Assembly: GCA_029287435.1 (NCBI GenBank)
Contig: JARFRD010000175.1
Location: 1 to 39,878 of the forward strand
Direction of reading: 5' to 3'
Length of the DNA: 39,878 nt
DNA from: Gammaproteobacteria bacterium
Lineage (GTDB): Bacteria; Pseudomonadota; Gammaproteobacteria; SZUA-229
Position 1 is the stretch's first letter, and each line of letters starts with the position of its first letter. The notes below the pieces were generated by a model. It made no database searches and was not told the DNA's origin. It saw only the letters and a program-made list of their open reading frames with translations. The translations under genes were made by a program, and so were the position numbers. Below, piece by piece: positions 9,701 to 38,758 of the stretch.

Positions 9701-10963
9701 ATGGCCAAAAAGATTTATGAAACCCCCATGCTGGATGAACTCGAAAACGGCCCCTGGCCAAGTTTCATCTCAGGTATCAAAAAACTCCGTGATGAGCATC
9801 CTGACGAACGCATCCAGGAAGTAACCAGCAGCCTGCTAGGTCAGCTGGAACACTCATACGAAACTCGTAAGGGTTACTGGAAAGGCGGTACCGTATCTGT
9901 ATTCGGTTACGGCGGCGGTATTATTCCTCGCTTCTCTGAAGTCGGTTCTGCTTTCCCTGAATCAAAAGAATTCCACACTATTCGTGTACAGCCGCCTGCA
10001 GGCAACCACTACACCACTGACATGCTACGTCAGCTGGGTGACAGCTGGGAGAAACACGGTTCCGGCCTGCAGACCTTCCATGGCCAGACCGGTAACATCA
10101 TGTTCATCGGTACTACTACAGAAGGCACACAGCACTTCTTTGACGAAATCAACGATTACGGTTGGGACCTCGGTGGTGCCGGCCCATGCGTACGTACTGC
10201 AATGTCATGCGTAGGTGCTTCTCGCTGTGAAATGTCATGCGCAAACGAGCACGGTATTCACCGTCACCTGGTAAACAACTTTACTGATGACGTTCACCGC
10301 CCTGCACTGCCATACAAGTTCAAGTTCAAAGTTTCCGGTTGCCCAAATGACTGCCAGAACGCAATCGAGCGTGCTGACATGGCTGTTATCGGCACATGGC
10401 GCGATGACATGAAAGTTGACCAGGAAGAAGTTAAGGCATATGTCGCTGCCAAGGGTCGCCAGTATATTATTGACAACGTTGTTACACGTTGCCCGACCAA
10501 TGCACTGTCTCTGAATGACGACGACACACTGGCTGTTGATAACCGTAACTGTGTTCGTTGCATGCACTGCCTGAACGTTATGCCTAAAGCACTGCATCCT
10601 GGTGATGACAAAGGCGTAACCATTCTTATCGGTGGTAAGCGTACACTGAAGATTGGTGACTTGATGGGTACAGTAGTTATTCCATTCAAGAAGCTCGAAA
10701 CAGAAGACGATTATGAAAACCTGATCGAAATGGCTGAAGAAATCATCGATTTCTGGGCAGAAAACGGTCTTGAGCATGAGCGTTGCGGTGAGATGATTGA
10801 ACGCATCGGTCTTGTTAACTTCCTTGAAGGTGTCGATTTCGACCTCGACGTTGATCCAAACATGGTTTCTCACCCACGTCAGAGCTCATACATTCGTATG
10901 GACGGCTGGGACGAAGAAGCTGAAAAATGGTTCGAACGTAAAATGGAAGAAGCGGCTGCTTAA
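9701..10963 (+). CDS. dsrA: reverse-type dissimilatory sulfite reductase subunit alpha
   Basis: CVRTAMSCVGASRCEMSCANEHG, VSGCPNDCQNAIERADMAVIG siroheme/4Fe4S motifs, inserted ferredoxin domain NCVRCMHCLNVMPKAL; operon context. Confidence 0.98.
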   Translation: MAKKIYETPMLDELENGPWPSFISGIKKLRDEHPDERIQEVTSSLLGQLEHSYETRKGYWKGGTVSVFGYGGGIIPRFSEVGSAFPESKEFHTIRVQPPAGNHYTTDMLRQLGDSWEKHGSGLQTFHGQTGNIMFIGTTTEGTQHFFDEINDYGWDLGGAGPCVRTAMSCVGASRCEMSCANEHGIHRHLVNNFTDDVHRPALPYKFKFKVSGCPNDCQNAIERADMAVIGTWRDDMKVDQEEVKAYVAAKGRQYIIDNVVTRCPTNALSLNDDDTLAVDNRNCVRCMHCLNVMPKALHPGDDKGVTILIGGKRTLKIGDLMGTVVIPFKKLETEDDYENLIEMAEEIIDFWAENGLEHERCGEMIERIGLVNFLEGVDFDLDVDPNMVSHPRQSSYIRMDGWDEEAEKWFERKMEEAAA

Positions 10964-10992
10964 TCGTTTTACAAAGACACAAAGCTACATGG

Positions 10993-11010
10993 AAGGGGCC
11001 TCGGCCCCTT
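10993..11010. terminator. hairpin in the dsrA-dsrB intergenic region (probable mRNA stability/processing element)
   Basis: AAGGGGCC-TC-GGCCCCTT, no long T-tract. Confidence 0.55.
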
Positions 11011-11053
11011 TCTAACAACAAATATACATTTATATATACATTGAGGAATAACC

Positions 11054-12127
11054 ATGGCTGATAAACCTCGTTCGCCAATTGAATCCGGATGTCCGGACGC
11101 ATTCCAGTACATGCACCCCGTTATGCGCAAGAATTACGGGCAGTGGAAATACCACGAGCATCCAAAACCAGGTGTACTTCGTCACGTTGCTTATAGCGGC
11201 GACGAAATCTGGACAGTACGTTGTGGTACACAGCGTATTCTCGACATCTTTACACTGCGTGAGCTGTGTGACATCGGTGACGAGTATGCTGATGGTTACA
11301 TCCACTTCACTATTCGCAGTAACGTTGAGTACATGGTTTCTGACGAATCCAAAGTTGAGCCACTGATCAAGGCAATTGAAGACGCTGGCTACATCGTTGG
11401 TGGTACCAAGAACTCTGTAACCATGATTTCTCATACACAGGGCTGGTTACACTGTGACATCCCTGGTACTGACGCATCAGGTGTTGTTAAGTCCATGATG
11501 GACGAGCTCATTGACGAGTTCCGTGAAAACAACATGCCTAACCGTGTACATATCACTACTTCTTGCTGCCAGATTAACTGTGGTGGCCAGGGTGATATAG
11601 CTATCAACGTACAGCACACCAAGCCACCCAAGATTAACCATGACCTGGTTTCCAACGTATGTGAGCGTCCTTCTGTTGTTGCTCGCTGCCCGGTTGCTGC
11701 TATTCGTCCTGCAATGGTTAACGGCAAACCTTCACTTGAAGTTGATGAGAAGAAGTGCATCTGCTGTGGTGCCTGCTTCCCTCCTTGTCCTCCAATGCAG
11801 ATCAACGATGCTGAGCACACCAAGCTGGCTATCTGGGTAGGTGGTAACCACTCAAACGCTCGTGGCAAACCTACGTTCCAGAAACTGGTTGCTGCTGGTA
11901 TCCCTAACAATCCACCTCGCTGGCCTGAAGCAAATGCCATCGTTAAGAGCATCCTGAAAGCATACAAAGAGGACGCCAAGGATTGGGAACGTATTAATGA
12001 CTGGATCGAGCGTATCGGTTGGCCACGTTTCTTCGAAGTTACTAACCTGCCGTTCACCAAGTACCATGTTGATACATGGCGCGGTGCTCGTAACAGCCTT
12101 AACGCTTCAACTCACATTCGTTTCTAA
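11054..12127 (+). CDS. dsrB: reverse-type dissimilatory sulfite reductase subunit beta
   Basis: THTQGWLHCDIPGTDASG, HITTSCCQINCGGQGDIAINVQHTKPP, ferredoxin CICCGACFPPCPP. Confidence 0.98.
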   Translation: MADKPRSPIESGCPDAFQYMHPVMRKNYGQWKYHEHPKPGVLRHVAYSGDEIWTVRCGTQRILDIFTLRELCDIGDEYADGYIHFTIRSNVEYMVSDESKVEPLIKAIEDAGYIVGGTKNSVTMISHTQGWLHCDIPGTDASGVVKSMMDELIDEFRENNMPNRVHITTSCCQINCGGQGDIAINVQHTKPPKINHDLVSNVCERPSVVARCPVAAIRPAMVNGKPSLEVDEKKCICCGACFPPCPPMQINDAEHTKLAIWVGGNHSNARGKPTFQKLVAAGIPNNPPRWPEANAIVKSILKAYKEDAKDWERINDWIERIGWPRFFEVTNLPFTKYHVDTWRGARNSLNASTHIRF

Positions 12128-12136
12128 GGAGCTATT

Positions 12137-12529
12137 GTGAAGTTCAGTATTCAAATTAACGAAGGGCCATACCAGCATCAGGCATCTGATTCTGCATTGC
12201 AGTTCACCAAGGCTGCACTGGCCAAGGGACATGAGATCTTCCGCGTCTTTTTCTATCACGACGGCGTGAACAACGCGACTCGTCTTGCTGTTCCACCGCA
12301 GGATGACCGCAACATCACGCAGCTGTGGCAGGAGCTGCAGAAAGAACATGATCTTGATCTTGTTGTATGTATTGCTGCAGCACAGCGTCGCGGCCTGCTC
12401 GACGAAGACGAAATGAAACGTCAGGGCAAGGACGCGAACAATATCGCTGAAGGCTTCCGCATTTCAGGCCTGGGCCAGCTCATCGAAGCCGGCATCGAGT
12501 CTGACAAGCTGGTTACATTCGGGGGTTAA
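12137..12529 (+). CDS. dsrE: sulfurtransferase DsrE
   Basis: First gene of the DsrEFH set; MKFSIQINEGPYQHQASDSALQFTKAALAKGHEIFRVFFYHDGVNNA...DLDLVVCIAAAQRRGL with conserved Cys. Confidence 0.96.
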   Translation: MKFSIQINEGPYQHQASDSALQFTKAALAKGHEIFRVFFYHDGVNNATRLAVPPQDDRNITQLWQELQKEHDLDLVVCIAAAQRRGLLDEDEMKRQGKDANNIAEGFRISGLGQLIEAGIESDKLVTFGG

Positions 12530-12541
12530 GGGAGAAATATC

Positions 12542-12943
12542 ATGTCAAAGAAATTTATGTACCTTAATCGCAAAGCACCATACGGCACTGTCTACGCACT
12601 CGAGTCACTCGAAGTTGTATTGATTGGCGCTGCCTTTGAACAGGACGTAAGTCTGGCTTTCATTGGTGATGGTGTTTACCAGCTGACCAAGGGTCAGAAC
12701 ACAGATGGCATCGGCATGAAGAACTTCTCGCCGACCTACTCTGCGCTGGGAGACTACGACGTAAACAAGATTTATGTCGAAAAAGAATCGCTTGAAGAAC
12801 GTGGTTTAACTCTGGACGACCTGCAGCATCTTGTTTGGGAAGACGAAGATGAAGATTGGGCTGAGAAGGATTCTATCCGCCTGGTAAGTCGTGCAGAACT
12901 GGCTGATGTTCTCGACGATCAAGACGTAGTACTGAGCTTCTAG
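12542..12943 (+). CDS. dsrF: DsrF (DsrEFH complex subunit)
   Basis: KKFMYLNRKAPYGTVYALESLEVVLIGAAFEQDVSLAFIGDGVYQL; position between dsrE and dsrH. Confidence 0.96.
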   Translation: MSKKFMYLNRKAPYGTVYALESLEVVLIGAAFEQDVSLAFIGDGVYQLTKGQNTDGIGMKNFSPTYSALGDYDVNKIYVEKESLEERGLTLDDLQHLVWEDEDEDWAEKDSIRLVSRAELADVLDDQDVVLSF

Positions 12944-12954
12944 GAGATATAACT

Positions 12955-13257
12955 ATGGCAATGCTTCACACTGTAAACAAATCTCCGTTTGAAAGTAACT
13001 CTTTCGAAACCTGTCTGGGTCTTGCAAAGAGCGGCTCAACCGTACTGCTCTTTGAAGATGGCGTTTATGCTGCAACCGCCGGCACGTCAGCTGCCGATGC
13101 AATCAGTAACGCTAATGGCATTACCTTCGCTGTACTTGGTCCTGATGCACAGGCCCGTGGCATTGACGGTAAGTTAGCTGACGGTATCAAAGTCGTTGAT
13201 TACGACGGTTTTGTTGATTTAGTGGCTGAGTCTGACCAAGTTCAGGCCTGGCTTTAA
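12955..13257 (+). CDS. dsrH: DsrH (DsrEFH complex subunit)
   Basis: MLHTVNKSPFESNSFETCLGLAKSGSTVLLFEDGVYAA; DsrH/TusB-like. Confidence 0.95.
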   Translation: MAMLHTVNKSPFESNSFETCLGLAKSGSTVLLFEDGVYAATAGTSAADAISNANGITFAVLGPDAQARGIDGKLADGIKVVDYDGFVDLVAESDQVQAWL

Positions 13258-13296
13258 TTTAATTTTTTATTTCGTTCTCAACGAGGAGCGCACATT

Positions 13297-13629
13297 ATGC
13301 CTATCGACGTAAACGGTAAAAGTCTTGAAGTAGACGAAGAAGGTTACCTTTCTAACCTTAACGAGTGGGAACCAGCTGTTGCTGAAGTTATGGCCAAGGC
13401 TGAAGACCTTGAGCTGACTGATGACCACTGGGAAATCATCAACTTCCTTCGTGAATACTACGAAGAGTACCAGATTGCTCCAGCAGTACGCGTACTGACT
13501 AAAGCGGTTGGTAAGAAGCTGGGTAAAGAAAAAGGTAACAGCAAGTACCTGTACGAACTGTTCCCATATGGTCCAGGTAAGCAGGCTTGTAAATACGCCG
13601 GCCTTCCTAAGCCAACTGGTTGCGTATAA
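13297..13629 (+). CDS. dsrC: sulfur carrier protein DsrC
   Basis: C-terminal KQACKYAGLPKPTGCV with both redox-active Cys residues. Confidence 0.98.
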   Translation: MPIDVNGKSLEVDEEGYLSNLNEWEPAVAEVMAKAEDLELTDDHWEIINFLREYYEEYQIAPAVRVLTKAVGKKLGKEKGNSKYLYELFPYGPGKQACKYAGLPKPTGCV

Positions 13630-13654
13630 GTAACCTGATCTTTATTGATCACCC

Positions 13655-13697
13655 CGGGCGGGGGTCACAGACCCCTGCTCGACAAACATTTTTTTAA
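13655..13697 (+). terminator. hairpin plus T-run in the dsrC-dsrM intergenic region (candidate attenuator/partial terminator)
   Basis: CGGGCGGGGGTC-ACA-GACCCCTGCTCG imperfect 12-bp stem followed by ACAAACATTTTTTT. Confidence 0.5.
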
Positions 13698-13721
13698 CGG
13701 TTTAAACGAGATATTACTGAA

Positions 13722-14483
13722 ATGACCGCCTTAAGTATTTTGTATGTCATAGCATTTTATGCAGCCATCATCGTTCTAGTTGGCGGCATCATATACAAGG
13801 TGCGTCAGTATATGAGCGTTCCTGCACCGTTAAAAATCGCCGTCACGCCAGCTCCTCTGACCAGGAGCGGTGTTGCATGGCGCCTGACAACTGAAATTGT
13901 CTTCTTTAACAGCCTGTTCCGCTCCACCAAGTGGACCTGGATCTTTGGCTGGATATTCCATGTTTCATTGCTGCTCGCCTTCTTCCGTCACCTGCGATAC
14001 GTGATCAGCCCTGATAGCTTCCTGTGGCCTATCGTCAGCCTGCAGGTCGTGCAGACCTTTGGTAAGTATGCTGGCTTTGCCATGGTATTTGGCCTGTTGG
14101 GCCTGCTTGCACGTCGCATCTTTGTTGATCGTGTACGTTACATCTCTTCACCATCGGATTATTTGATGCTGCTGCTGATCATTGCAATAGCCGGCAGCGG
14201 CCTCATGATGAACTATGTTGCCCACACAGACATCGTTCAGTTAAAAGCATTTATTCTCGGTCTGTTCTACTTCGACTGGCAGAACCTGCCTAATGACACA
14301 ATTTTACTTGTGCACTTAACACTGGTGCTGTTGCTGAGTTTTATATTCCCGATGAGCAAGCTGCTGCACATGCCAGGGCTGTTCTTTGCACCAACACGTT
14401 ACCAGGTAGATAACCCGCGTGAACAGCGTCACCTGTCTGATTGGGGCGCCGCAATTGAAGCTGAAGACGGCCGTAACGCTTAA
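13722..14483 (+). CDS. dsrM: DsrM, membrane heme b subunit of DsrMKJOP
   Basis: Multiple hydrophobic segments, nitrate-reductase gamma-like FNSLFRSTKWTWIFGWIFHVSLLLAFFRHLRY; operon position. Confidence 0.96.
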   Translation: MTALSILYVIAFYAAIIVLVGGIIYKVRQYMSVPAPLKIAVTPAPLTRSGVAWRLTTEIVFFNSLFRSTKWTWIFGWIFHVSLLLAFFRHLRYVISPDSFLWPIVSLQVVQTFGKYAGFAMVFGLLGLLARRIFVDRVRYISSPSDYLMLLLIIAIAGSGLMMNYVAHTDIVQLKAFILGLFYFDWQNLPNDTILLVHLTLVLLLSFIFPMSKLLHMPGLFFAPTRYQVDNPREQRHLSDWGAAIEAEDGRNA

Positions 14484-14528
14484 GCGTTATCGATAACAAG
14501 AACATTATATTGTCAGGAACATTGAATA

Positions 14529-16064
14529 ATGGCTGAATACGAAATACCGGAAACTCATGAATTTCCCGTGATTCCTACCGTTATGGAAGGCGTTATGTCA
14601 CACAGTGCTCCATTCCTGGCAAAAGCACAGTTCCAGGAGCCTCTGGGTTTTCCCGGTGATGCAGGACTGGTCGATGGCTGGAAGGAAATGTTCATCGAAG
14701 AGCTTGGCAACATGCTCAAGAAATACCGCTCGCTGCAGGTATTCATGGATATCTGTGTCAAGTGCGGTGCCTGCACGGACAAATGCCATTATTTCCTGGG
14801 TACTGGTGACGCGAACAACATGCCTGTTGCTCGTCAGGACCTGCTGCGTAAAGTTTATCGCCGCTATTTCACCCTGCCCGGTAAGTACTTCCCGAAACTG
14901 GTTGGCGCTGTCGACCTGACGGAAGAAGTTGTCAATGAAATGTACAGCTACTACCACCAGTGTTCAGAGTGCCGTCGCTGTTCTGTATTCTGTCCTTACG
15001 GTATTGATACTGCCGAAGTCACCATGGCTGCTCGCGATATCCTCGCCAAGATAGGTATGGGGCAGAAATACTCTAACGAGATTATCGGCAAGGTATTCAA
15101 GATTGGTAACAACCTTGGCCTGCCCGAGCCCGCGCTTGTAGACACGATGGAAGGCCTCGAAGAAGAAGTCGAAGAAGATACTGGCATAAAAGTCCGCTAC
15201 CCCGTCGATGAAAAAGGCGCTGACATTCTACTGGTGACACCATCAGCTGACTTCTTTGCTGAACCACACGTTGACGGCCTGATTGGCTATGGCAAGGTAT
15301 TCCATGCGGCAGGTGTTAGCTGGACTGTCAGCTCAAAAGCATCAGAAGCAGCTAACTTTGGCCTGTTCATTGGTAACTACGAAAACATGCGTGAAATATC
15401 ACTGCGTATTCGTGAAGCTGCCAAAGAGCTTGGCGTTAAGCGCATTATCTTTGGTGAGTGTGGACACGCATGGCGTGTTGCCTACAACTTCCTGAACACA
15501 CTGGCCGGACCCTGGGACTTCCTTGACCCGAACTACCCTGTGCCACAGCACATACTCGAATTCACCTCGGACTGCATCGACAAAGGCATTCTGAAACTGG
15601 ATCCGTCCGAGAACGACTGGATGACCCTGACGTTCCACGATTCATGCAACATTGCACGTGCATCTCGTATCGGCGACTACCCGGGAAGCCAGTTTGAAAT
15701 ACCACGCAAGGTAATCAAGGCAGTTTGTAACAATTTCCATGACATGGCTGACGAAACCATCCATGACAGAACTTTCTGTTGCGGCGGTGGCGGCGGCCTG
15801 TTGACAGACGACCTGATGGAGCTTCGTTTGAAAGGCGCTTTACCGCGTATGGAAGCTCTGAAAAATGTAATTGAAGATAAGGGTGTTACCCACATGGCAG
15901 CAATTTGCGCCATCTGTAAATCCCAATTTACCAAGGTACTGCCCTACTACGGCATGACCATGGACCAGATTGTCAGTGTTCACCAGTTGGTGAGCAACGC
16001 TATCATCCTCGACGGACAAGACGATGATGAAGCTGAAAACGCTGAAACTGACGAAGCAGCGTAA
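14529..16064 (+). CDS. dsrK: DsrK, HdrD-like FeS subunit of DsrMKJOP
   Basis: CVKCGACTDKCHYFLG and CSECRRCSVFCPYGID ferredoxin motifs; CCG-domain elements FHDSCN...FCCGGGGGLL, AICAICKSQF. Confidence 0.97.
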   Translation: MAEYEIPETHEFPVIPTVMEGVMSHSAPFLAKAQFQEPLGFPGDAGLVDGWKEMFIEELGNMLKKYRSLQVFMDICVKCGACTDKCHYFLGTGDANNMPVARQDLLRKVYRRYFTLPGKYFPKLVGAVDLTEEVVNEMYSYYHQCSECRRCSVFCPYGIDTAEVTMAARDILAKIGMGQKYSNEIIGKVFKIGNNLGLPEPALVDTMEGLEEEVEEDTGIKVRYPVDEKGADILLVTPSADFFAEPHVDGLIGYGKVFHAAGVSWTVSSKASEAANFGLFIGNYENMREISLRIREAAKELGVKRIIFGECGHAWRVAYNFLNTLAGPWDFLDPNYPVPQHILEFTSDCIDKGILKLDPSENDWMTLTFHDSCNIARASRIGDYPGSQFEIPRKVIKAVCNNFHDMADETIHDRTFCCGGGGGLLTDDLMELRLKGALPRMEALKNVIEDKGVTHMAAICAICKSQFTKVLPYYGMTMDQIVSVHQLVSNAIILDGQDDDEAENAETDEAA

Positions 16065-16116
16065 AACAATATTTTAACGATACTCACTCTGTAACGGTAT
16101 TTAACAGGAGAACGAC

Positions 16117-18084
16117 ATGGCAACCTCCAGTGATGACATGAACACTAAGCTGACCTTCAGAAAATATGAAGAAGGTGACACTGATTGGGGCGGTTTTGAA
16201 AACAAGATTTTCAAAGAAGACACTTCACACAAGTGCCCTACCTACGTACACCGTACTCCACCATGCCAGGGCAGCTGTCCTTCTGGTGAGGATATTCGAG
16301 GCTGGCTGGACATCGTGCGTGGTATTGAAACACCACCTGAAGGTGTCAGCATGCAGGAATATGCTTTCCGTCGTTCAACAGATGCCAACCCGTTCCCATC
16401 TATGATGGGTCGTGTATGCCCTGCGCCATGCCAGGACGGTTGTAACCGTAACAACGTTGAAGACTTCGTTGGCATCAACTCTGTTGAGCAGTACATTGGT
16501 GACACTGCATTTGCTGAAGGCTTCAAGTTTGACAACAGCGCCGAGATGACTGACAAGAAAGTCGCCATCATCGGTGGTGGTCCTGCGGGTATGGCTGCTG
16601 CTTACCAGCTACGTCGCAAGGGTATCGCTTCAACCATCTTTGATGATCACGACGAACTTGGCGGCATGATGCGTTACGGTATTCCAGGCTATCGTACCCC
16701 ACGTGATTTCCTCGACAACGAATGTCAGCGCATCCTGGACATGGGTCACATCGAAACACGCATGAACACTAAAGTTGGTACTGACGTTAGTGTTGAAGAC
16801 CTCGAAAAAGAATACGACGCCATCTTGTGGGCCATGGGCTGCTGGACAGGTCGTGACCTGCCACTCGAAGGCTGGGACGAAACACCGAACTGCGTATCTG
16901 CAGTTAAGTTCCTTGAGCAGTTCAACAAGGGTGAAATGAAATACACCGCACCACGCGTACTCTGCATCGGTGGTGGTGATACTTCTATCGACGTTGTATC
17001 TGTTTCACGCCGTATCGGTACTGTTGAAGGCTACAGCGACGCACCTGAAGCTGTGGTTAATGGCGAAGCAAGCCATGCGGATCACGATCCATCTGCCAAC
17101 ATTCCATGCACCCAGGTAACTCTGACTGCGCTGTTCAAGAAAGAAGAAATGACAGCTGCACAGCACGAAGTTGAAGACGCTACCATCGAAGGCGTTAACA
17201 TCATGAACGAAGTAATGCCTGTTGAAATCATTCGTGATGACAGCGGTCGCGCTACCGGCATGAAGTTCGTTGACTGCAAATGGGAAAACAACGCACCGGT
17301 TGCTGTCGAAGGTGGTAAAGAATATACCGTTGAAGCAGACGTTATCGTTGCTGCGATTGGTCAAAGCGGTAACATGCAGGGCGTTGAAGATTTCGACAAT
17401 GGTCGTAACCTGATCGACTCAGACAACGTTTACCGTGTACCTGGCAAGGAAAACCACTTTGTCTGTGGCGACATCGTCCGCCCTCACCTGCTGACTACAG
17501 CTATCGGTCAGGCATACATCGTTTCTGACACCATCGAGAAGCACTTCCAGAATATTGAAGTCAGGAAACGTCCTAAAGTCGACGTTCACCACTTCAACCT
17601 GTCAGACAAGCTGGTAGAAGCTGGCCTGGGTGTAGACAGCTATAGCGCTAATGACTATCACGAAGGTGAACAGCGCGGCACTGACAAGCAGAGCTATGCC
17701 ATTCATAACTATGAAGATCGCTCTGCACAGGAAATCATCTCGACAGAAAAGATGTTCCTCGGTCACTTCGAATATACCCCGCGCAACCTGCGTGATACCG
17801 ATGTACCTTCTTCTGACGAAGTTCTGGGTCATTTCGCTGAACGTCAGAGCAACCTGACAGAAGAAATGGCCATCGAAGAAGCCAACCGCTGCATGAGCTG
17901 CGGCATGTGTTTCGAATGTGACAACTGTGTCATCTACTGCCCACAGGATGCTGTGTTCCGCGTCAAGAAAGACCAGCAGACAACCGGTCGTTATGTAGAT
18001 ACGGATTACAACAAGTGCATCGGTTGCCACATCTGTTCAGATGTATGCCCAACCGGTTACATCGACATGGCACTGGGTGAGTAA
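16117..18084 (+). CDS. dsrL: DsrL, FAD-dependent NAD(P)H:acceptor oxidoreductase
   Basis: GltD-like: KVAIIGGGPAGMAAAYQLRRKG; C-terminal ferredoxin CMSCGMCFECDNCVIYCPQDA, CIGCHICSDVCPTGYI. Confidence 0.97.
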   Translation: MATSSDDMNTKLTFRKYEEGDTDWGGFENKIFKEDTSHKCPTYVHRTPPCQGSCPSGEDIRGWLDIVRGIETPPEGVSMQEYAFRRSTDANPFPSMMGRVCPAPCQDGCNRNNVEDFVGINSVEQYIGDTAFAEGFKFDNSAEMTDKKVAIIGGGPAGMAAAYQLRRKGIASTIFDDHDELGGMMRYGIPGYRTPRDFLDNECQRILDMGHIETRMNTKVGTDVSVEDLEKEYDAILWAMGCWTGRDLPLEGWDETPNCVSAVKFLEQFNKGEMKYTAPRVLCIGGGDTSIDVVSVSRRIGTVEGYSDAPEAVVNGEASHADHDPSANIPCTQVTLTALFKKEEMTAAQHEVEDATIEGVNIMNEVMPVEIIRDDSGRATGMKFVDCKWENNAPVAVEGGKEYTVEADVIVAAIGQSGNMQGVEDFDNGRNLIDSDNVYRVPGKENHFVCGDIVRPHLLTTAIGQAYIVSDTIEKHFQNIEVRKRPKVDVHHFNLSDKLVEAGLGVDSYSANDYHEGEQRGTDKQSYAIHNYEDRSAQEIISTEKMFLGHFEYTPRNLRDTDVPSSDEVLGHFAERQSNLTEEMAIEEANRCMSCGMCFECDNCVIYCPQDAVFRVKKDQQTTGRYVDTDYNKCIGCHICSDVCPTGYIDMALGE

Positions 18085-18117
18085 ACGCTGTATCTACAGA
18101 CCAACAAGGTTGAAATC

Positions 18118-18582
18118 ATGACAAACCGCTTTCTGCGTATCACTTTTTTACTGGTTGGACTAGGCCTGCTGTACCCTGTATTGGGTTCAGCAGATACGCC
18201 CAAGCCCGTCATTCACGAGCCTGAAGGTGAAGGTGTGAAGTGTGTGCACCCAGAAGAAGAGATGAAAAGAAACCATATGAATTACATCCTGCATCAACGC
18301 GATGACACGATGTATGACGGTATTCGCACAGAAAAGCACAGCCTTGCTAACTGCATCGACTGTCATGTTCAGCCAGGTAAAGACGGCAAGATCGCCAGCA
18401 TCGAGACAGAGGAGCACTTCTGCAAAGGCTGTCACGAATATGCGGCAGTCACCATCGACTGCTTTGAATGTCATGCTGACCGTCCACAGAAGTTTATTAA
18501 TCGCGGCGGCAAGAATAACGCATCTCTTCAACAGGACTTGCAGACTATGTTATCTGCAGGCACTGCGTCGGGAGACCAATAA
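18118..18582 (+). CDS. dsrJ: DsrJ, periplasmic triheme cytochrome c
   Basis: N-terminal signal-like segment; three CxxCH motifs: CIDCH, CKGCH, CFECH. Confidence 0.96.
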   Translation: MTNRFLRITFLLVGLGLLYPVLGSADTPKPVIHEPEGEGVKCVHPEEEMKRNHMNYILHQRDDTMYDGIRTEKHSLANCIDCHVQPGKDGKIASIETEEHFCKGCHEYAAVTIDCFECHADRPQKFINRGGKNNASLQQDLQTMLSAGTASGDQ

Positions 18583-18584
18583 CA

Positions 18585-19340
18585 ATGAGCGCCAACAAAA
18601 GTAAAGTTGCTGTGAATAATTCAAGACGCGCCTTTCTGAGCAAAACAGCCAGTACTGCGGGTATGATTACAATCGCACCCGGTGTACTTCTGCACCAGGT
18701 AGCTAATGCAAAACCTGACGATCAGCCGATCTCGGAAAAAGTTCGCTGGGGTATGCTGATTGATACCAACAAGTGCGAAAAAGGCTGCACCGACTGTATC
18801 GACGCCTGTAATGCAGAACATAGTCTGACTGATAATGGTCGTCCCGAGTCAGATACTCAGTATATTCGTAAAGTCACCTTGCGTGACAAATCAACGGGGC
18901 ACGAGCTGTCATTGCCACTGATGTGCCAGCACTGCGAGACAGCACCTTGTGTCGATGTCTGCCCTACTGGCGCTTCTTTCACGCGTAAAGACGGCATTGC
19001 GCTTGTCGACAAGCATATCTGCATCGGCTGTCGTTACTGCATGATGGCTTGCCCGTACAAGGCACGCTCGTTCGTCCACGAAGCAGTGAAAAACCAGACC
19101 TTGAGCGCACCGCGCGGTAAAGGCACAGTTGAATCATGCACCATGTGTGTTCATCGTGTAGACAAGGGTGAGACCCCTGCATGTGTCGAAGCATGCTCCA
19201 AAGGCATGCACGACGCGATGATCTTCGGTGATCTGAATGATCCCAACAGCAAGATCTCAAAATCACTTGCACAGTATGGTGGCAAGCAGCTGCGCGCTGA
19301 CCTGCAACTGAATACCGCCGTTCGCTATCGGGGCATATAG
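18585..19340 (+). CDS. dsrO: DsrO, periplasmic ferredoxin-like FeS protein
   Basis: Tat-like N-terminus NSRRAFLSKTAST; multiple ferredoxin motifs CEKGCTDCIDAC, CQHCETAPCVDVCPTGA, CIGCRYCMMACPYKA. Confidence 0.97.
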   Translation: MSANKSKVAVNNSRRAFLSKTASTAGMITIAPGVLLHQVANAKPDDQPISEKVRWGMLIDTNKCEKGCTDCIDACNAEHSLTDNGRPESDTQYIRKVTLRDKSTGHELSLPLMCQHCETAPCVDVCPTGASFTRKDGIALVDKHICIGCRYCMMACPYKARSFVHEAVKNQTLSAPRGKGTVESCTMCVHRVDKGETPACVEACSKGMHDAMIFGDLNDPNSKISKSLAQYGGKQLRADLQLNTAVRYRGI

Positions 19341-19361
19341 GAAGAATTTAGAGAAATCACG

Positions 19362-20549
19362 ATGAAAAAGATTGAATACTCTGCAATCAAAGGTAACAGC
19401 CTGGGCTACTATGGGTTACTGGGTGGTTTAGGCTTATTGATGCTTATTGGCCTGCTCGCCGTTTGGCATATGGAGCACCAGGGCCACTGGGTTACGGGCA
19501 TGAACAACCAGATCGTCTGGGGCATGCCGCACGTATTTGCCGTGTTCCTGATTGTTGCTGCCTCTGGCGCACTCAACGTTGCTTCGGTTGCATCCGTATT
19601 CCGCAAAGAAGAGTATGAGCCATTGGCCCGTCTCTCAGGCCTTCTGGCTATCGCCCTGCTCGCTGGTGGCCTGGTTGTTCTTCTACTCGATCTGGGTCGC
19701 CCTGACCGCCTGATCGTTGCGATGACTTACTACAACTTCAAGTCAATCTTCGCCTGGAACATCATTCTCTATACCGGTTTCTTCGCTATTGTCGGCATTT
19801 ACATCTGGTTCATGATGGACCACAACATGTACAAGTTTAAGAAAACAGCCGGCATGGCAGCCTTTGTCTGGCGCCTGATACTGACGACTGGTACCGGTTC
19901 TATTTTCGGCTTCCTGGTTGCACGCTCAGCCTATGACGCAGCGCTGCTGGCACCGATGTTTATTGTCATGTCCTTTGCCTTTGGTCTTGCCATCTTCATT
20001 CTCGTTCTGATGGCTTCCTACCACTGGTCAGGCCGTGAACTGGGCGATGAAATCGTGGCACGCCTGCGTAACCTGCTGGGTGTATTCATCGCTGCGGTAC
20101 TCTATTTTGTAGCGGTATATCATCTGACAAACCTGTATATCACTGAACATCATGGATTTGAAAAATTCATCCTGATGGAAGGTGGCAGCTATACCAAGAT
20201 TTTCTGGATTGGTCAGATCATCCTCGGCGGCCTGATTCCGCTGGCACTGGTCTATGCGCCAGGCGTAAAGAACTGCCGCAAGACGCTAAGCCTGATCTGT
20301 GCACTGGTTATCCTTGGTGGTCTTGCTACCATGTACACCGTCATCATTGCTGGCCAGGCTTACCCACTGCAGATATTCCCGGGCTATGAAGTTACCAGTT
20401 CATTCTTTGATGGTGTTGTAAACGACTACACGCCGTCAATTTATGAGATTGCTCTTGGCGTTGGTGGTGTCGCTGTTTCCCTGCTAATTGTTGCATTCGT
20501 TATCAAGGTACTGCCTTTCCTGCCAAAGAGCCTGGCTGATTCCAAGTAA
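19362..20549 (+). CDS. dsrP: DsrP, NrfD-like membrane subunit
   Basis: About ten hydrophobic segments, NrfD/PsrC-like; operon position. Confidence 0.96.
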   Translation: MKKIEYSAIKGNSLGYYGLLGGLGLLMLIGLLAVWHMEHQGHWVTGMNNQIVWGMPHVFAVFLIVAASGALNVASVASVFRKEEYEPLARLSGLLAIALLAGGLVVLLLDLGRPDRLIVAMTYYNFKSIFAWNIILYTGFFAIVGIYIWFMMDHNMYKFKKTAGMAAFVWRLILTTGTGSIFGFLVARSAYDAALLAPMFIVMSFAFGLAIFILVLMASYHWSGRELGDEIVARLRNLLGVFIAAVLYFVAVYHLTNLYITEHHGFEKFILMEGGSYTKIFWIGQIILGGLIPLALVYAPGVKNCRKTLSLICALVILGGLATMYTVIIAGQAYPLQIFPGYEVTSSFFDGVVNDYTPSIYEIALGVGGVAVSLLIVAFVIKVLPFLPKSLADSK

Positions 20550-20623
20550 GTCATCAGCCGGCCGACCGTTAGCGGCTACGGCTACTCTGCAGACATACCT
20601 GCTTCTATGGTGCAGAATGCATC

Positions 20624-22027
20624 ATGAGTGTAACCACGATGTCCAGACTCTTCATATCCGCGTCGCGTAAGTCTTCCGGTAAAACCTCAATTTCGATTGG
20701 TTTATGTGCCGCCCTGCACGCTCGGGGTCATAAGGTACAACCCTATAAAAAAGGCCCTGACTATATTGACCCACACTGGCTGGCAGAAGCTGCCGGTAGA
20801 AACTGCTACAACCTCGATTTCTACACCATGCAGCATGAAGAAATACTTGCTGCGTATTCCCGCTATTCTTCTGACGCTGATATCTCGCTCATCGAAGGAA
20901 ACATGGGGCTCTATGATGGTCTCGATCTCGATGGCAGCAACAGCAATGCTGCACTTGCCAGGTTACTCAAGGCCCCCGTGGCACTGGTACTCGACGCCCG
21001 CGGCATGACACGAGGTATCGCCCCCCTGATACTCGGATACAAGGCATTCGATACGAACATCGATATAAAAGGCGTCATACTGAACAAGCTCGGTGGCTAC
21101 CGACACGAAGACAAACTGAGAAATATCATAGAGCACTACACAGATGTAAAAGTCCTCGGTGCTGTGCATAACAGCGCTGAGCTGGATATAGAAGAACGTC
21201 ACCTCGGGCTCGTACCCAGCAATGAAGACAATGCCTGCCTGGACAAGATCAGCCAGCTCAGGACTGCTGTCGAAAATCAGGTAGACCTCGATGCCGTACT
21301 GGATATCGCCTCACAGGCAAAGGCCTTACCCGCTATACCGGTTGAAGTTACACCACACGTATCTGCAGCTGATGTCAGAATCGGAATCATTAAAAACTCA
21401 GCCTTTGGCTTTTACTACCCAGATGATCTGGATGCAATTCGTGACGCTGGTGCTGACCTGGTTACAATTGACAACCTGACCGCAACAGACTTGCCTGAGC
21501 TCGACGGCCTGTTCATTGGTGGCGGTTTTCCTGAAACCCACATGGAAAAACTGGAAAATAATACTGCCTTCAGAGAGCAGCTCAAGCAGGCGATCGAGGC
21601 CGGATTACCCGTGTATGCCGAATGTGGTGGCCTTATGTACCTTGCGCGCTCCATCAGCTGGAAAGACACCAAATGCGACATGGTTGGCGCCATACCAGCA
21701 GATATCACCATGGAGAAACGTCCGCAGGGTCGGGGTTACGTGCAGCTAGAGGAAACAGATGACAGCTTGTGGCCAGATGCAGAGAACAGGATCATAGCTG
21801 CGCACGAATTTCATTATTCAAGATTTATAAATCTTGATAAAAATGCTAAGTTTGCATTTCGAGTTTTGCGTGGCACGGGAATAGATGGTCAGCATGATGG
21901 CTATGTCCACAAAAATATGCAGGCTAATTACACCCACCTACGCAACACTAACAGCAATCAATGGGCGAAACGATTCGTCGATTTTGTACGCCAATGTAAA
22001 CATCAGGCCAATACGAAAACACCATGA
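20624..22027 (+). CDS. dsrN: DsrN, cobyrinic acid a,c-diamide synthase-like (siroheme amidation)
   Basis: LFISASRKSSGKTSISIGL P-loop, GLYDGLDLDGSNSNAALARLLKAPVALVLD, glutaminase domain LPVYAECGGLMYL. Start may be the second Met (20639). Confidence 0.95.
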   Translation: MSVTTMSRLFISASRKSSGKTSISIGLCAALHARGHKVQPYKKGPDYIDPHWLAEAAGRNCYNLDFYTMQHEEILAAYSRYSSDADISLIEGNMGLYDGLDLDGSNSNAALARLLKAPVALVLDARGMTRGIAPLILGYKAFDTNIDIKGVILNKLGGYRHEDKLRNIIEHYTDVKVLGAVHNSAELDIEERHLGLVPSNEDNACLDKISQLRTAVENQVDLDAVLDIASQAKALPAIPVEVTPHVSAADVRIGIIKNSAFGFYYPDDLDAIRDAGADLVTIDNLTATDLPELDGLFIGGGFPETHMEKLENNTAFREQLKQAIEAGLPVYAECGGLMYLARSISWKDTKCDMVGAIPADITMEKRPQGRGYVQLEETDDSLWPDAENRIIAAHEFHYSRFINLDKNAKFAFRVLRGTGIDGQHDGYVHKNMQANYTHLRNTNSNQWAKRFVDFVRQCKHQANTKTP

Positions 22028-22338
22028 TTACAGTAACTGAAGCCGCTGCAGAACAGATTAAAAAATCCGCCAAACAGGGTAAATCGGAAGGTATGCCGCT
22101 GCGTATTGCAGCCACTCGCAACAGCGATGAAAGCATCCATTACGGAATGGGTTTTGACGATAGTAAAGAAGACGACATCACCATCAGTTCAGAAGATGTC
22201 GACATTGTTATCTCGCCTGTTAGCGCAGAAATTCTCAAGGATACTGTTCTTGATTTTGTTGAACTCGAACCGGGAAAGCAGCAGTTTATTTTCATGAATC
22301 CAAATGATCCTGCCTACACACCCCCTCAGGATAATTAA
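22024..22338 (+). CDS. dsrR: DsrR, A-type carrier-like protein lacking Cys
   Basis: IscA-like MITVTEAAAEQIKKSAKQGK...DDITISSEDVDIVISPVSAEIL...; contains no Cys, as described for DsrR; ATGA overlap with dsrN. Confidence 0.92.
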   Translation: MITVTEAAAEQIKKSAKQGKSEGMPLRIAATRNSDESIHYGMGFDDSKEDDITISSEDVDIVISPVSAEILKDTVLDFVELEPGKQQFIFMNPNDPAYTPPQDN

Positions 22339-31987: not shown

Positions 31988-32593
31988 ATGGCCGTGCAAG
32001 TAAAGACACTCTTGTTATTATCGCTATCGCTGATATTCAGCGGATATGCGTTTGCCGAGACCAGGACTGCTACTTTTGCTGGTGGCTGTTTCTGGTGCAT
32101 GGAGCCACCTTTCGACAAACTCGATGGTGTCATATCGACTACCTCTGGTTATATCGGCGGTCATCTGAAAAACCCGACCTACAAACAGGTATCAGCCGGC
32201 TCAACAGGTCACACTGAAGCTGTTCAAATCGAGTACGACCCGGGCAAAATAAGCTATGAAGAGCTGTTGAACGTTTTCTGGCAAAACATCGATCCAACCA
32301 CACCGGATCAGCAGTTTTGCGATCGCGGCAGTCAATATCGCAGCGGAATTTTCTACCATGGTGCCCGGCAAAAACAGCTTGCTGAAGCATCCCTGCAGGG
32401 CATCATCAAAAACAAGCCGTTTGATCAGCCTGTTGTTACCGAGATCACTGCCGCCACGACATTCTTCCCCGCTGAAGAATACCACCAGGATTACTACCAG
32501 AAGAATCCTTTGCGCTACAAGTACTATCGCTTTGCCTGTGGTCGGGACAGCCGTCTCGAGGAACTCTGGGGCGAGCCCAAAAGCCAGCCATAA
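31988..32593 (+). CDS. msrA: peptide-methionine (S)-S-oxide reductase with signal peptide
   Basis: TATFAGGCFWCMEPPFDKLDGVISTTSGYIGG...YKQVSAGSTGHTEAVQIEYDP...FCDRGSQYRSGIFYH; N-terminal hydrophobic signal ending GYAFAE. Confidence 0.96.
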   Translation: MAVQVKTLLLLSLSLIFSGYAFAETRTATFAGGCFWCMEPPFDKLDGVISTTSGYIGGHLKNPTYKQVSAGSTGHTEAVQIEYDPGKISYEELLNVFWQNIDPTTPDQQFCDRGSQYRSGIFYHGARQKQLAEASLQGIIKNKPFDQPVVTEITAATTFFPAEEYHQDYYQKNPLRYKYYRFACGRDSRLEELWGEPKSQP

Positions 32594-32843
32594 TTTGACA
32601 ATTTACGCCTGATAGCGCGCTGCAATGCCTGCTGCAGCCGTGGGGCGGCCTGACTACGAAAACCACACGCTTTAATGTAGAATACGCCCCACTAAATTCA
32701 GGCCGGCCATCAGAAACGTACGAGCCGCTGTCCTGGTAAAGAATTGGCCACCAATCGCTACTTCAACTCATATAGCGAAAAAAAGATTTTTTAATAGGGT
32801 GCTGGCTAAGATGCCGGCATGTAAGTTACTTGGGAGACATTAC

Positions 32844-34040
32844 ATGATTAAACCTCATGGTTCTGACGAACTGAATCCGTTGTTTGTTTACGATTCAGCT
32901 GAAAACGAAGCGCTTCACCACGAAGCTGAAAGCCTGCCTTCTATTGTTGTCAGCTCGGCAACTGCTGCAAACGCTGTCATGATGGGCGCTGGATACTTCA
33001 ATCCATTAACCGGTTACATGACCAAGGCTGATGCGCTGTCTGTCGCCAGGGAAATGAAAACCGCTTCAGGTCTGTTCTGGCCTACCCCTGTACTGAACCT
33101 GGTCGAAGACGCAGGTGACATCAAGGCTGGTGACCGCATTGCACTGCGTGATCCTAACGTTGAAGAAAACCCGGTCCTGGCCGTTATGGATGTTGAAGCC
33201 GTTGAGGAATTCAGCGACGAAGAAATGGCCATGATGACCCAGGAAATCTATCGTCCGGCTGAAGGCGAAGACCACATCGGCGCAACCACCTTCAATTCAC
33301 AGGGCAAGGTCTGCCTGTCTGGCCCGATCAAGGTGCTGAACTTCTCTTACTTCCAGAGCGAATTCCCGGATACATTCCGTACCGCGGTTGAAATTCGTAA
33401 CGAAATCGCTGAGCGTGGCTGGAATAAAGTGGTTGCTTTCCAGACGCGTAATCCGATGCACCTTGCTCACGAAGAACTGTGCCACATGGCAATGGATCGC
33501 CTTGGCTGCGATGGCCTGGTAATCCACATGCTGCTCGGCAAGCTGAAGAAAGGTGATATCCCGGCTCCAGTGCGTGATGCTGCAATCCGCAAGATGGTTG
33601 AACTGTACTTCCCGCCAAACAGCGCCATGGTAACCGGCTACGGTTTCGACATGCTGTACGCTGGTCCCAAGGAAGCTGTGCTACACGCCGTGTTCCGCCA
33701 GAACATGGGCGCTACCCACTTCATCATCGGTCGTGACCACGCGGGTGTTGGTGACCACTACGGCGCTTTCGACGCACAGGAAATCTTCGAGAAGGAAGTA
33801 CCTGCCGACGCTCTGGATATCGAAATCTTCAAGGCTGACCACACTGCATGGTCGAAGAAACTGAACAAGGTTGTGATGATGTGCGAAGCACCGGATCACG
33901 AAAAAGATGACTTTGTTCTGCTTTCAGGTACCAAGGTACGTGAAATGCTGGTCCAGGGCATTTCACCGCCAAAGGAATTCTCACGTCCCGAAGTGGCTGA
34001 GATCCTGATTCAGTACTATCAGAGTCTTGATGCAGCGTAA
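32844..34040 (+). CDS. sat: sulfate adenylyltransferase (ATP sulfurylase)
   Basis: VVAFQTRNPMHLAHEELCHMA, ATHFIIGRDHAGVGDHYGAFDAQEIF, LSGTKVREML; start at internal Met MIKPHGSDEL. Confidence 0.97.
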   Translation: MIKPHGSDELNPLFVYDSAENEALHHEAESLPSIVVSSATAANAVMMGAGYFNPLTGYMTKADALSVAREMKTASGLFWPTPVLNLVEDAGDIKAGDRIALRDPNVEENPVLAVMDVEAVEEFSDEEMAMMTQEIYRPAEGEDHIGATTFNSQGKVCLSGPIKVLNFSYFQSEFPDTFRTAVEIRNEIAERGWNKVVAFQTRNPMHLAHEELCHMAMDRLGCDGLVIHMLLGKLKKGDIPAPVRDAAIRKMVELYFPPNSAMVTGYGFDMLYAGPKEAVLHAVFRQNMGATHFIIGRDHAGVGDHYGAFDAQEIFEKEVPADALDIEIFKADHTAWSKKLNKVVMMCEAPDHEKDDFVLLSGTKVREMLVQGISPPKEFSRPEVAEILIQYYQSLDAA

Positions 34041-34733: not shown

Positions 34734-35468
34734 TCAGACTTTTATATAAACCCAGCCTTTCTCCAGTCGCTCGGAGATTAATTCCTGTGCCGTTTTGGAT
34801 GTCACAGCTTTTGGCATCATGACAATCTCCTTCCCTTCCCTTTGCATAGCCTTGAGAATTGAACGCTGACAGGCATAAAAAGCCACGTTCTCATTGGTTT
34901 CGATAATTTGCTCAATTCTATTTACGTAAGGTGAAACATCGGCTCGTAACATATTAATACCTTCCTTATTGGTAATAATATCGAGCTTCATCGGCCTGTT
35001 TGCCTTGCTGTAGCTGGCGAGAAGATGCTCAGCCTCATTCAGCGCATCATGTACTGCAGCAATATCACCTGTTGTTACGTGCAATACGATTTTTCGCTCT
35101 GCCCGTTCGACAGTGGATGAATTCTTGAAATAGTCAAAAACTTCAGTAGCAGATGCTATCTTATTTGGCCGGGCTGTTTCATTCACCGCCCACCCGGTTA
35201 ATACACCGAGCGCAATCAACAAGCTCGCAGCCAGTGCCTTGAAGCCAAGAATATTGAAATTAGATGTATTTTCGTGATGTGATTCAGTCTCGGGCACACT
35301 ATTGTAGGCATAGCTGATTAATTCCCTGACCGCCCTGAGCTGGCATACGCGTTCGCGTAAATCATTATCATCAAGGATAGCCTTGTGGATTTCATCCATC
35401 TCAGGCTTATCAAGCTGCTTATCGATAAACAGATTTAACTTTTCATCGGTATATTGATTTTCCGTCAT
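34734..35468 (-). CDS. transmembrane anti-sigma-factor-like protein with C-terminal periplasmic DsrE-like (COG1416-type) domain
   Basis: N-terminal TDEKLNLFIDKQLDKPEMDEIHKAILDDNDLRERVCQLRAVRELI; one TM FKALAASLLIALGVLTGWAV; C-terminal ERKIVLHVTTGDIAAVHDALNEAEHLL...PMKLDIITNKEGINMLRADVSPYVNRIEQIIETNENVAFYACQRS...LISERLEKGWVYIKV. Start overlaps sigma stop (TAATG). Confidence 0.8.
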   Translation of the reverse strand: MTENQYTDEKLNLFIDKQLDKPEMDEIHKAILDDNDLRERVCQLRAVRELISYAYNSVPETESHHENTSNFNILGFKALAASLLIALGVLTGWAVNETARPNKIASATEVFDYFKNSSTVERAERKIVLHVTTGDIAAVHDALNEAEHLLASYSKANRPMKLDIITNKEGINMLRADVSPYVNRIEQIIETNENVAFYACQRSILKAMQREGKEIVMMPKAVTSKTAQELISERLEKGWVYIKV

Positions 35469-36016
35469 TATTTCACCCTCTTTAATCTGATAGGGACTCC
35501 GCCGTCTCCTGCCAGATCGAGTAATTGCTCCTTTAAATTCTGTCTTGCCCTGTATAAGCGACTCATCACTGTGCCGATTGGTATATCAAGAATCTCTGAT
35601 ATTTCTGCATAACTAAAACATGCAAAATCCGCCAAAGTGACGACTTCTCTTAACGACATCGGTAATTTTTCTATCGAGCTACGTACACGGTGAATAATTT
35701 GCGATTGCTGATAATTATCACTGTGTGAATTCTGCTCGTCATCACCAACATCGAAAAGCTCAACATCTCTGCCTTTTACTCGCAGGTAATCATGCCAGTT
35801 ATTTAGAAGTATTCTATATAGCCACGTATCAAGCGTTGCATGATTTTTCAATCTTTCAGCATTTTTTAATGCTTTCAGCATCGTTTCCTGAACCAGATCA
35901 TCGGCAAGTGAAGCATTGTGACACCAGGAATACGCAACTCTGTATAGCTTGGTCCGACGTCGGGCAAACTCCTGTTTCAGCTTCGTCGCTGCAAACAGGC
36001 TTTTAACTTTATTCAT
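35468..36016 (-). CDS. ECF-type RNA polymerase sigma factor
   Basis: LYRVAYSWCHNASLADDLVQETMLKALKNAERLKNHATLDTWLYRILLNNWHDYLR (region 2) and LPMSLREVVTLADFACFSYAEISEILDIPIGTVMSRLYRARQNLKEQL (region 4). Start MNKVK at 36016 favoured (GGAG upstream) over listed 36034. Confidence 0.95.
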   Translation of the reverse strand: MNKVKSLFAATKLKQEFARRRTKLYRVAYSWCHNASLADDLVQETMLKALKNAERLKNHATLDTWLYRILLNNWHDYLRVKGRDVELFDVGDDEQNSHSDNYQQSQIIHRVRSSIEKLPMSLREVVTLADFACFSYAEISEILDIPIGTVMSRLYRARQNLKEQLLDLAGDGGVPIRLKRVK

Positions 36017-36041: not shown

Positions 36042-36066
36042 GACGCAGCCAGCCATGATTTATTCC
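36042..36066 (-). promoter_or_regulatory. ECF-type promoter-like motif upstream of the sigma gene
   Basis: On the minus strand GGAATAAATCATGGCTGGCTGCGTC (GAATAAAT-N12-CGTC). Confidence 0.6.
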
Positions 36067-36195
36067 ATGGCTCAATGCTACCACGCTTAAAAAAATAAAC
36101 GCAGAAATGTGCACAACAGTAACTTGAAGCATTCTGTTAATTTCATTATTCACAATATTAATAACTACTAACTTAAAAAAGAGTGAAATTATTTT

Positions 36196-36220
36196 TGAAT
36201 AAATTTCTAACTGTCTCGTC
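36196..36220 (+). promoter_or_regulatory. ECF-type promoter-like motif upstream of the first DsrE-like gene
   Basis: TGAATAAATTTCTAACTGTCTCGTC (GAATAAAT-N12-CGTC), same spacing and -35 word as the divergent motif at 36042-36066. Confidence 0.6.
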
Positions 36221-36261
36221 TTCTTACCTAAACACAAATCACTAATCAGGAGGTGATGAAA

Positions 36262-38732: not shown

Positions 38733-38758
38733 CAGGGCCCGCAAGGGCCCTGATTTTA
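38733..38758 (+). terminator. intrinsic terminator after porin
   Basis: CAGGGCCC-GCAA-GGGCCCTG-ATTTT. Confidence 0.75.

Follow-up and report, generated by a model that had tools for sequence, protein, structure and literature searches.

An ECF26-like sigma factor with a DsrE-domain anti-sigma factor probably uses a matched pair of divergent promoters in a gammaproteobacterium

Two matched ECF-type motifs point away from each other in a 237-bp gap of a gammaproteobacterial draft genome, one towards a sigma gene and the other towards a gene for an exported DsrE-like protein. Are they promoters, which sigma factor would read them, and to what would such a system respond? The DNA analysed is the stretch of 39,878 nucleotides of contig JARFRD010000175.1 (assembly GCA_029287435.1), referred to as the window; features of the locus are collected in Table 1. 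The explanation favoured here, with a probability of roughly 0.8, is that an ECF26-like sigma factor uses both divergent promoters and that its anti-sigma factor, which carries a DsrE domain, is the likely sulfur sensor. The promoter pair, the target genes, the domain structure and the family assignment are supported by comparison with related loci.

Table 1. Features of the sigma locus and its surroundings, in window coordinates.
Feature	Position	Strand	Details
Peptide methionine sulfoxide reductase MsrA	31988-32593	plus	near sigma locus
ATP sulfurylase	32799-34040	plus	near sigma locus
Anti-sigma factor P0002, 244 aa	34734..35468	minus	helices 1-56; membrane helix 74-98; predicted periplasmic DsrE domain 123-244
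ECF sigma factor P0001, 182 aa, MNKVK start, ECF26-like	35468..36016	minus	Pfam Sigma70_r2 1e-15, r4_2 1e-14
Sigma/anti-sigma operon promoter (predicted)	36042..36066	minus	-35 GGAATAAAT 36066-36058, N12, -10 CGTC 36045-36042, then T; complete motif (36066-36042) GGAATAAATCATGGCTGGCTGCGTC
DsrE-like/porin operon promoter (predicted)	36196..36220	plus	-35 TGAATAAAT 36196-36204, N12, -10 CGTC 36217-36220, then T; complete motif (36196-36220) TGAATAAATTTCTAACTGTCTCGTC
Exported DsrE-like protein A, P0003	36262..36750	plus	likely ATG 36262 after AGGAGG 36248-36253; Pfam DsrE 6.7e-13
Exported DsrE-like protein B, P0004	36791..37231	plus	Pfam DsrE 2.2e-4, just under cut-off; anti-sigma profile 9.7e-17
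Outer-membrane porin P0005	37294..38685	plus	Pfam Porin_4 0.0012, weak; most related loci have a porin of 35-70% identity
Terminator-like hairpin, porin/DUF302 gap	38733..38752	plus	
DUF302 exported protein P0006	38793..39254	plus	Pfam DUF302 5e-21

The initial annotation had placed the two motifs at the positions and on the strands given in Table 1, with an identical 8-nt -35-like word and 16 nt between GAAT and CGTC, and all of this was found on the sequence. The common word is GAATAAAT, and the first G of GAAT is followed by the C of CGTC 20 bases later in both motifs (offset 20). The full eight-base identity is partly coincidence, positions 6-8 being variable among relatives; the core kept across them is [GT]GAATAWW-N13/14-C[GA]TCT. 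The MNKVK start favoured earlier for the sigma protein agrees with its predicted leader, in which the ATG at 36016 has GGAG just 5' of it. Among 20 loci of the family, the distance from CGTC to the start of the sigma gene is 23-29 nt in 19 and 17 nt in the remaining one.

The pattern GAATAWW-N13-CGTC occurs four times in the 2.62-Mb draft genome (77% complete), against six matches of a reversed-pattern control. Two of the four are the divergent pair, and the chance of finding at least two of four matches in one given gap of 237 bp is about 5e-8; no gene is clearly placed behind either of the other two exact matches (C89, C152). A loose whole-genome scan, GGAATAAAT-N12-CGTC with two mismatches, returned 55 matches against 70 for the control and hence no enrichment. 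The loose motif alone therefore proves nothing, and the case is carried by position and conservation. A chance likeness of two words in an AT-rich gap would be in keeping with the unenriched loose scan, but not with half of the strict matches in the genome lying inside that gap, nor with the conservation described below.

Anti-sigma genes of the P0002 family occur in many gammaproteobacterial genomes. Relatives of P0002 were present in 61 of 145 genomes, and the named ones belong to uncultured Gammaproteobacteria, including Thiotrichales and Arenicellales. Forty related loci were extracted, and 20 family loci were scored for motif offsets. GAATA...CGTC stands 5' of the sigma gene at exactly offset 20 (G to C) in all 20, with at most one match at any other offset from 12 to 24 on the sigma strand; on the side of the divergent gene, offset 20 is seen in 14/20 and offset 21 in 9/20. 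The spacers differ freely between these loci while both boxes stay. The rule was then applied to a held-out, class-wide set of 60 new loci (62 sigma/anti-sigma pairs) that had no part in defining it, with the search reaching 160 bp 5' of sigma. Offset 20 or 21 was occupied in 51 of 62 sigma upstream regions (9 at 20 and 42 at 21), the 24 other offsets within 10-35 gave eight matches combined, and the exact motif was absent from offsets 20/21 in the remaining 11. Where a divergent dsr, porin or tlpA gene was present in the held-out loci, the motif was found on its strand in 20 of 31 cases, and no motif pointed towards the divergent genes in 11. Common descent of these loci means that raw probabilities computed from the counts overstate independence and are indicative only. 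Conservation upstream of orthologous loci, on which the earlier reading had been made to depend, thus extends to every family locus and to most held-out ones. At the level of sequence conservation, with offset-specific retention over many genera, chance resemblance is refuted and may be set aside. Judged from this conservation, the two motifs very probably represent genuine promoters that an ECF26-like sigma factor uses.

The family of this sigma factor can be placed from its own sequence and from its promoter type. P0001 is an ECF sigma factor with regions 2 and 4 only, and it is similar in sequence to ECF26. Rhizobial sigma factors, including that of the rpoE6 region of Sinorhizobium meliloti pSymA, are 38-41% identical to P0001 (38% for the RpoE6 region, 40% for those beside S8 proteases). 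Against the sigma profile of the P0001 family, the rpoE6 region scores 133.6 bits, and together with the rhizobial plasmid sigmas beside S8 proteases the range is 129-137 bits. The GAAC-like -35 element assumed by the initial annotation was not borne out; the element is the ECF26-type GGAATA, and the -10 is the GT(C) of this group, in which autoregulation is common and published offsets are also 20-21. The same boxes recur in S. meliloti, at offset 21 in the ECF26 promoters of rpoE4, the rpoE1 operon and SMc01022 and at offset 20 in RpoE6-linked promoters; ECF26 promoters linked to their targets by overexpression share these boxes and offsets 20-21 (PMC6180224). The rpoE4 promoter itself reads GGAATAAG-N13-CGTCT (PMC3511301, PMC6180224). 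The sulfite-responsive promoters of RpoE4 and of SigE of Starkeya novella carry -35 GGAAT and -10 CGTC with spacings that differ by 1 bp, as do the promoters compared here (PMC6527743). On sequence similarity and promoter type, the P0001 system is ECF26-like.

Is the adjacent sigma factor the one that reads the pair? Some loci carry CATC in place of CGTC, often at both promoters. Residue 76 of the sigma protein is D in 69/70 CGTC loci and other than D in 16/17 CATC loci, and in the held-out set it is the sigma position that separates the two best. We take this residue to be the counterpart of N84 in E. coli sigma E. The covariation of D76 with the second -10 base is suggestive, the changes on the tree (about five) being too few for a phylogeny correction. 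Recognition of the motifs by some regulator other than the adjacent sigma factor, whether of ECF26 type or not, would be in line with the cross-activation known between RpoE1 and RpoE4 (PMC6180224) and between SnRpoE1 and SnSigE (PMC6527743), and two such sigma/anti-sigma pairs adjoin in some genomes (L121, L126). Such an arrangement is nevertheless improbable, given that the motif stands 5' of the same sigma gene family-wide and that the second -10 base varies together with residue 76 of the adjacent sigma factor.

The initial annotation overlooked the DsrE domain encoded by the anti-sigma gene. The ATG of P0002 overlaps the stop codon of the sigma gene. P0002 alone has no Pfam match; a profile of 39 relatives matches the DsrE-like structures 1l1s (E=1e-17) and 2pd2. 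An AlphaFold2 model of P0002 (pLDDT 86) shows anti-sigma helices, a single membrane helix and a DsrE fold, and its top Foldseek matches are DsrE/F-like (1l1s, TM 0.90 on the target). C200 is kept in 39/39 and 62/62 relatives and, together with W239, is invariant in all 101 aligned anti-sigma sequences; 1l1s has a cysteine at the equivalent place. The C-terminus of P0002 is thus predicted to belong to the DsrE/DsrF-like superfamily by fold and conserved cysteine. The fold is that of MTH1491 (1l1s), ST0148 (2pd2), YchN (1jx7) and DsrEFH (2hy5), which are free-standing, whereas in P0002 it follows an anti-sigma domain and a membrane helix in one polypeptide.

The layout of P0002 is otherwise that of ECF26 anti-sigma factors, with a co-transcribed gene, an N-terminal anti-sigma domain and, as in the S. 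meliloti EcfR proteins, a single membrane helix followed by a C-terminus on the (predicted) periplasmic side. The N-terminus of its family matches the EcfR6 region at 3e-9, that is, ECF26-associated anti-sigma factors. The periplasmic domain of the EcfR proteins is described as RsiW-like with DsrE unmentioned (PMC6180224, PMC3511301), and in P0002 a DsrE domain stands in its place; the system is therefore a variant of the ECF26 kind, one in which, by sequence, the periplasmic domain of the anti-sigma factor has been exchanged. The RpoE6 and rhizobial plasmid systems likewise have a sigma gene divergent from the gene of an exported protein. There the partner is an S8 serine protease, the anti-sigma factors match the P0002-family profile in the N-terminal part only, and no DsrE domain was detected in them. 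A plasmid search yielded no full-length copy of a P0002-type anti-sigma factor. No description of DsrE with an anti-sigma factor, or of DUF302 or soxB with an ECF sigma factor, was found in literature that takes in few subscription papers and not the main ECF classification paper, and a DsrE-bearing anti-sigma factor as a sensor architecture is apparently undescribed before.

What would the sigma factor control? The minus-strand promoter would give autoregulation of sigma and anti-sigma, and the plus-strand promoter would drive an operon of the two exported DsrE-like proteins and the porin. Control by the sigma factor of both its own operon and the divergent DsrE-like/porin genes had been proposed earlier, and the proposal is supported by comparison, through the conserved pair and through the motif at an unlinked dsrA: in G001, G005 and G006 (L299, L177, G006:C5) it stands 5' of a dsrA copy outside the direct neighbourhood of sigma. 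Co-transcription of the DUF302 gene with the porin is doubtful, because a terminator-like hairpin separates them; no motif of its own was found for DUF302, and the porin-DUF302 gap had none in 11 loci.

The target set first proposed holds for the genes of the locus and is too narrow, as relatives add a TlpA-like thioredoxin gene and soxB. Between sigma and dsrA, most close relatives have a gene for a TlpA-like periplasmic thioredoxin with its own motif, a gene absent from this gap in the window. In one locus (L057) the TlpA-like gene at this place appears to be split in two frames, at bases 161-704 from the sigma start, through assembly error or decay. Upstream of soxB the motif is at offset 20/21 in 13 of 30 relatives, with one match at other offsets; the positive cases include the same-genus relatives G001, G003 and G005, and no motif was found for soxB in G002 and G006 of the same genus. 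The window's own genome (77% complete) yielded no soxB. A YeeE/YedE-type sulfur transporter gene is preceded by the motif in two genera. The same sigma factor in relatives would probably also drive the TlpA-like thioredoxin and soxB, and with these among its targets the regulon would therefore concern periplasmic sulfur compounds.

As a further target, soxX was rejected, its upstream regions giving two matches at offset 20 and three at offset 18, hence no enrichment. In the own genome, a motif with one mismatch, TGAATAAATTGCGCTTACAACAGTCT, lies about 350 bp 5' of soxX (L238, G000:C217:3198). The G001 genome contains 20 matches of the pattern (control, 4), many of them inside genes; several matches inside reading frames were left uncounted. 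Small secreted proteins of unassigned family are encoded downstream of motif copies in L292 (G001:C1:1215000-1218400; no Pfam match) and L184 (G007:C71). Another copy, GAATAATCACCTTGTCCACGCGTCT, lies about 250 bp 5' of an rpoD-like primary sigma gene (L286, G001:C1:296400-299800).

The surroundings in the window are those of sulfur metabolism. A reverse-Dsr operon, dsrABEFHCMKLJOPN, occupies 9701-22338 on the plus strand. Its dsrA, dsrB, dsrM, dsrK, dsrO and dsrP were identified by family models (dsrM and dsrP under the cut-off), and dsrE, F, H, C, L, J and N were assigned by position or related matches. Because the window holds this operon together with ATP sulfurylase, the source organism very likely oxidises sulfur through the reverse-Dsr pathway. 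The cytoplasmic dsrE of the operon is not among the matches of the anti-sigma DsrE profile, and the exported DsrE-like genes therefore represent a different subfamily. They are exported paralogues in a separate operon, unlike the canonical cytoplasmic dsrE-dsrF-dsrH of a dsr operon.

The anti-sigma profile does match the exported DsrE-like proteins of the window, at 9.7e-17 (P0004) and 4.7e-6, and the P0002 domain therefore shares a superfamily with the proteins under its putative control. This homology bears on how the switch would work. DsrE-family proteins assemble into oligomers, and the domain might dock the exported DsrE-like proteins, reporting their free level or loading as feedback; alternatively a protease step might be the real switch, the promoters and the regulon being right in either case. 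ECF26 sigma genes are often divergent from genes of exported proteins, with a serine protease as partner (PMC6180224; L170, L172), as a docking or protease step would lead one to expect. Docking is harder to reconcile with the domain's own invariant cysteine in all 101 aligned sequences, needless for a pure docking module, or with loci that have no DsrE gene inside the fetched flanks (e.g. L114-L117, L128), and these schemes are considered rather unlikely.

In the preferred reading, the anti-sigma factor would keep sigma at the membrane, and the periplasmic DsrE domain with its invariant cysteine would be the likely sensor of sulfite, thiosulfate-derived or sulfane sulfur. The sulfur species would react with the domain or bind to it, and sigma would be released. 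We infer the transcription itself, the identity of the signal, the chemistry of the cysteine and the route of sigma release, and sensing of sulfur through the DsrE domain of P0002, from the comparisons above and from known systems. RpoE1/RpoE4 of S. meliloti and SigE of S. novella answer to sulfite (PMC3511301, PMC6527743), the latter in a sulfur-oxidising bacterium (PMC6527743). The S. meliloti regulon is, as here, small, comprising the own operon and periplasmic sulfur genes; the target there is the sulfite oxidase SorT, and here DsrE-like proteins, porin and SoxB take its place. S. novella sigE, beside sorAB, is not autoregulated, unlike the motif-preceded sigma gene of this locus (PMC6527743). 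That the whole family of DsrE-domain anti-sigma factors senses sulfite or sulfane sulfur directly and, via an ECF26-like sigma factor, controls periplasmic sulfur handling including soxB is put forward tentatively, at slightly less than even odds.

Sulfite sensing by ECF26 anti-sigma factors has been stated as an open question (PMC6527743), and the DsrE domain, with its single invariant cysteine, is a concrete, testable candidate for the ECF26 sulfite sensor. The promoter pairs and sigma residue D76 lend themselves to direct reporter testing. If the proposal is true, DsrE sensing would fill the missing step of ECF26 sulfite responses and, with an ECF sigma factor tied to soxB in uncultured relatives, would represent a new mode of regulating Sox thiosulfate oxidation.
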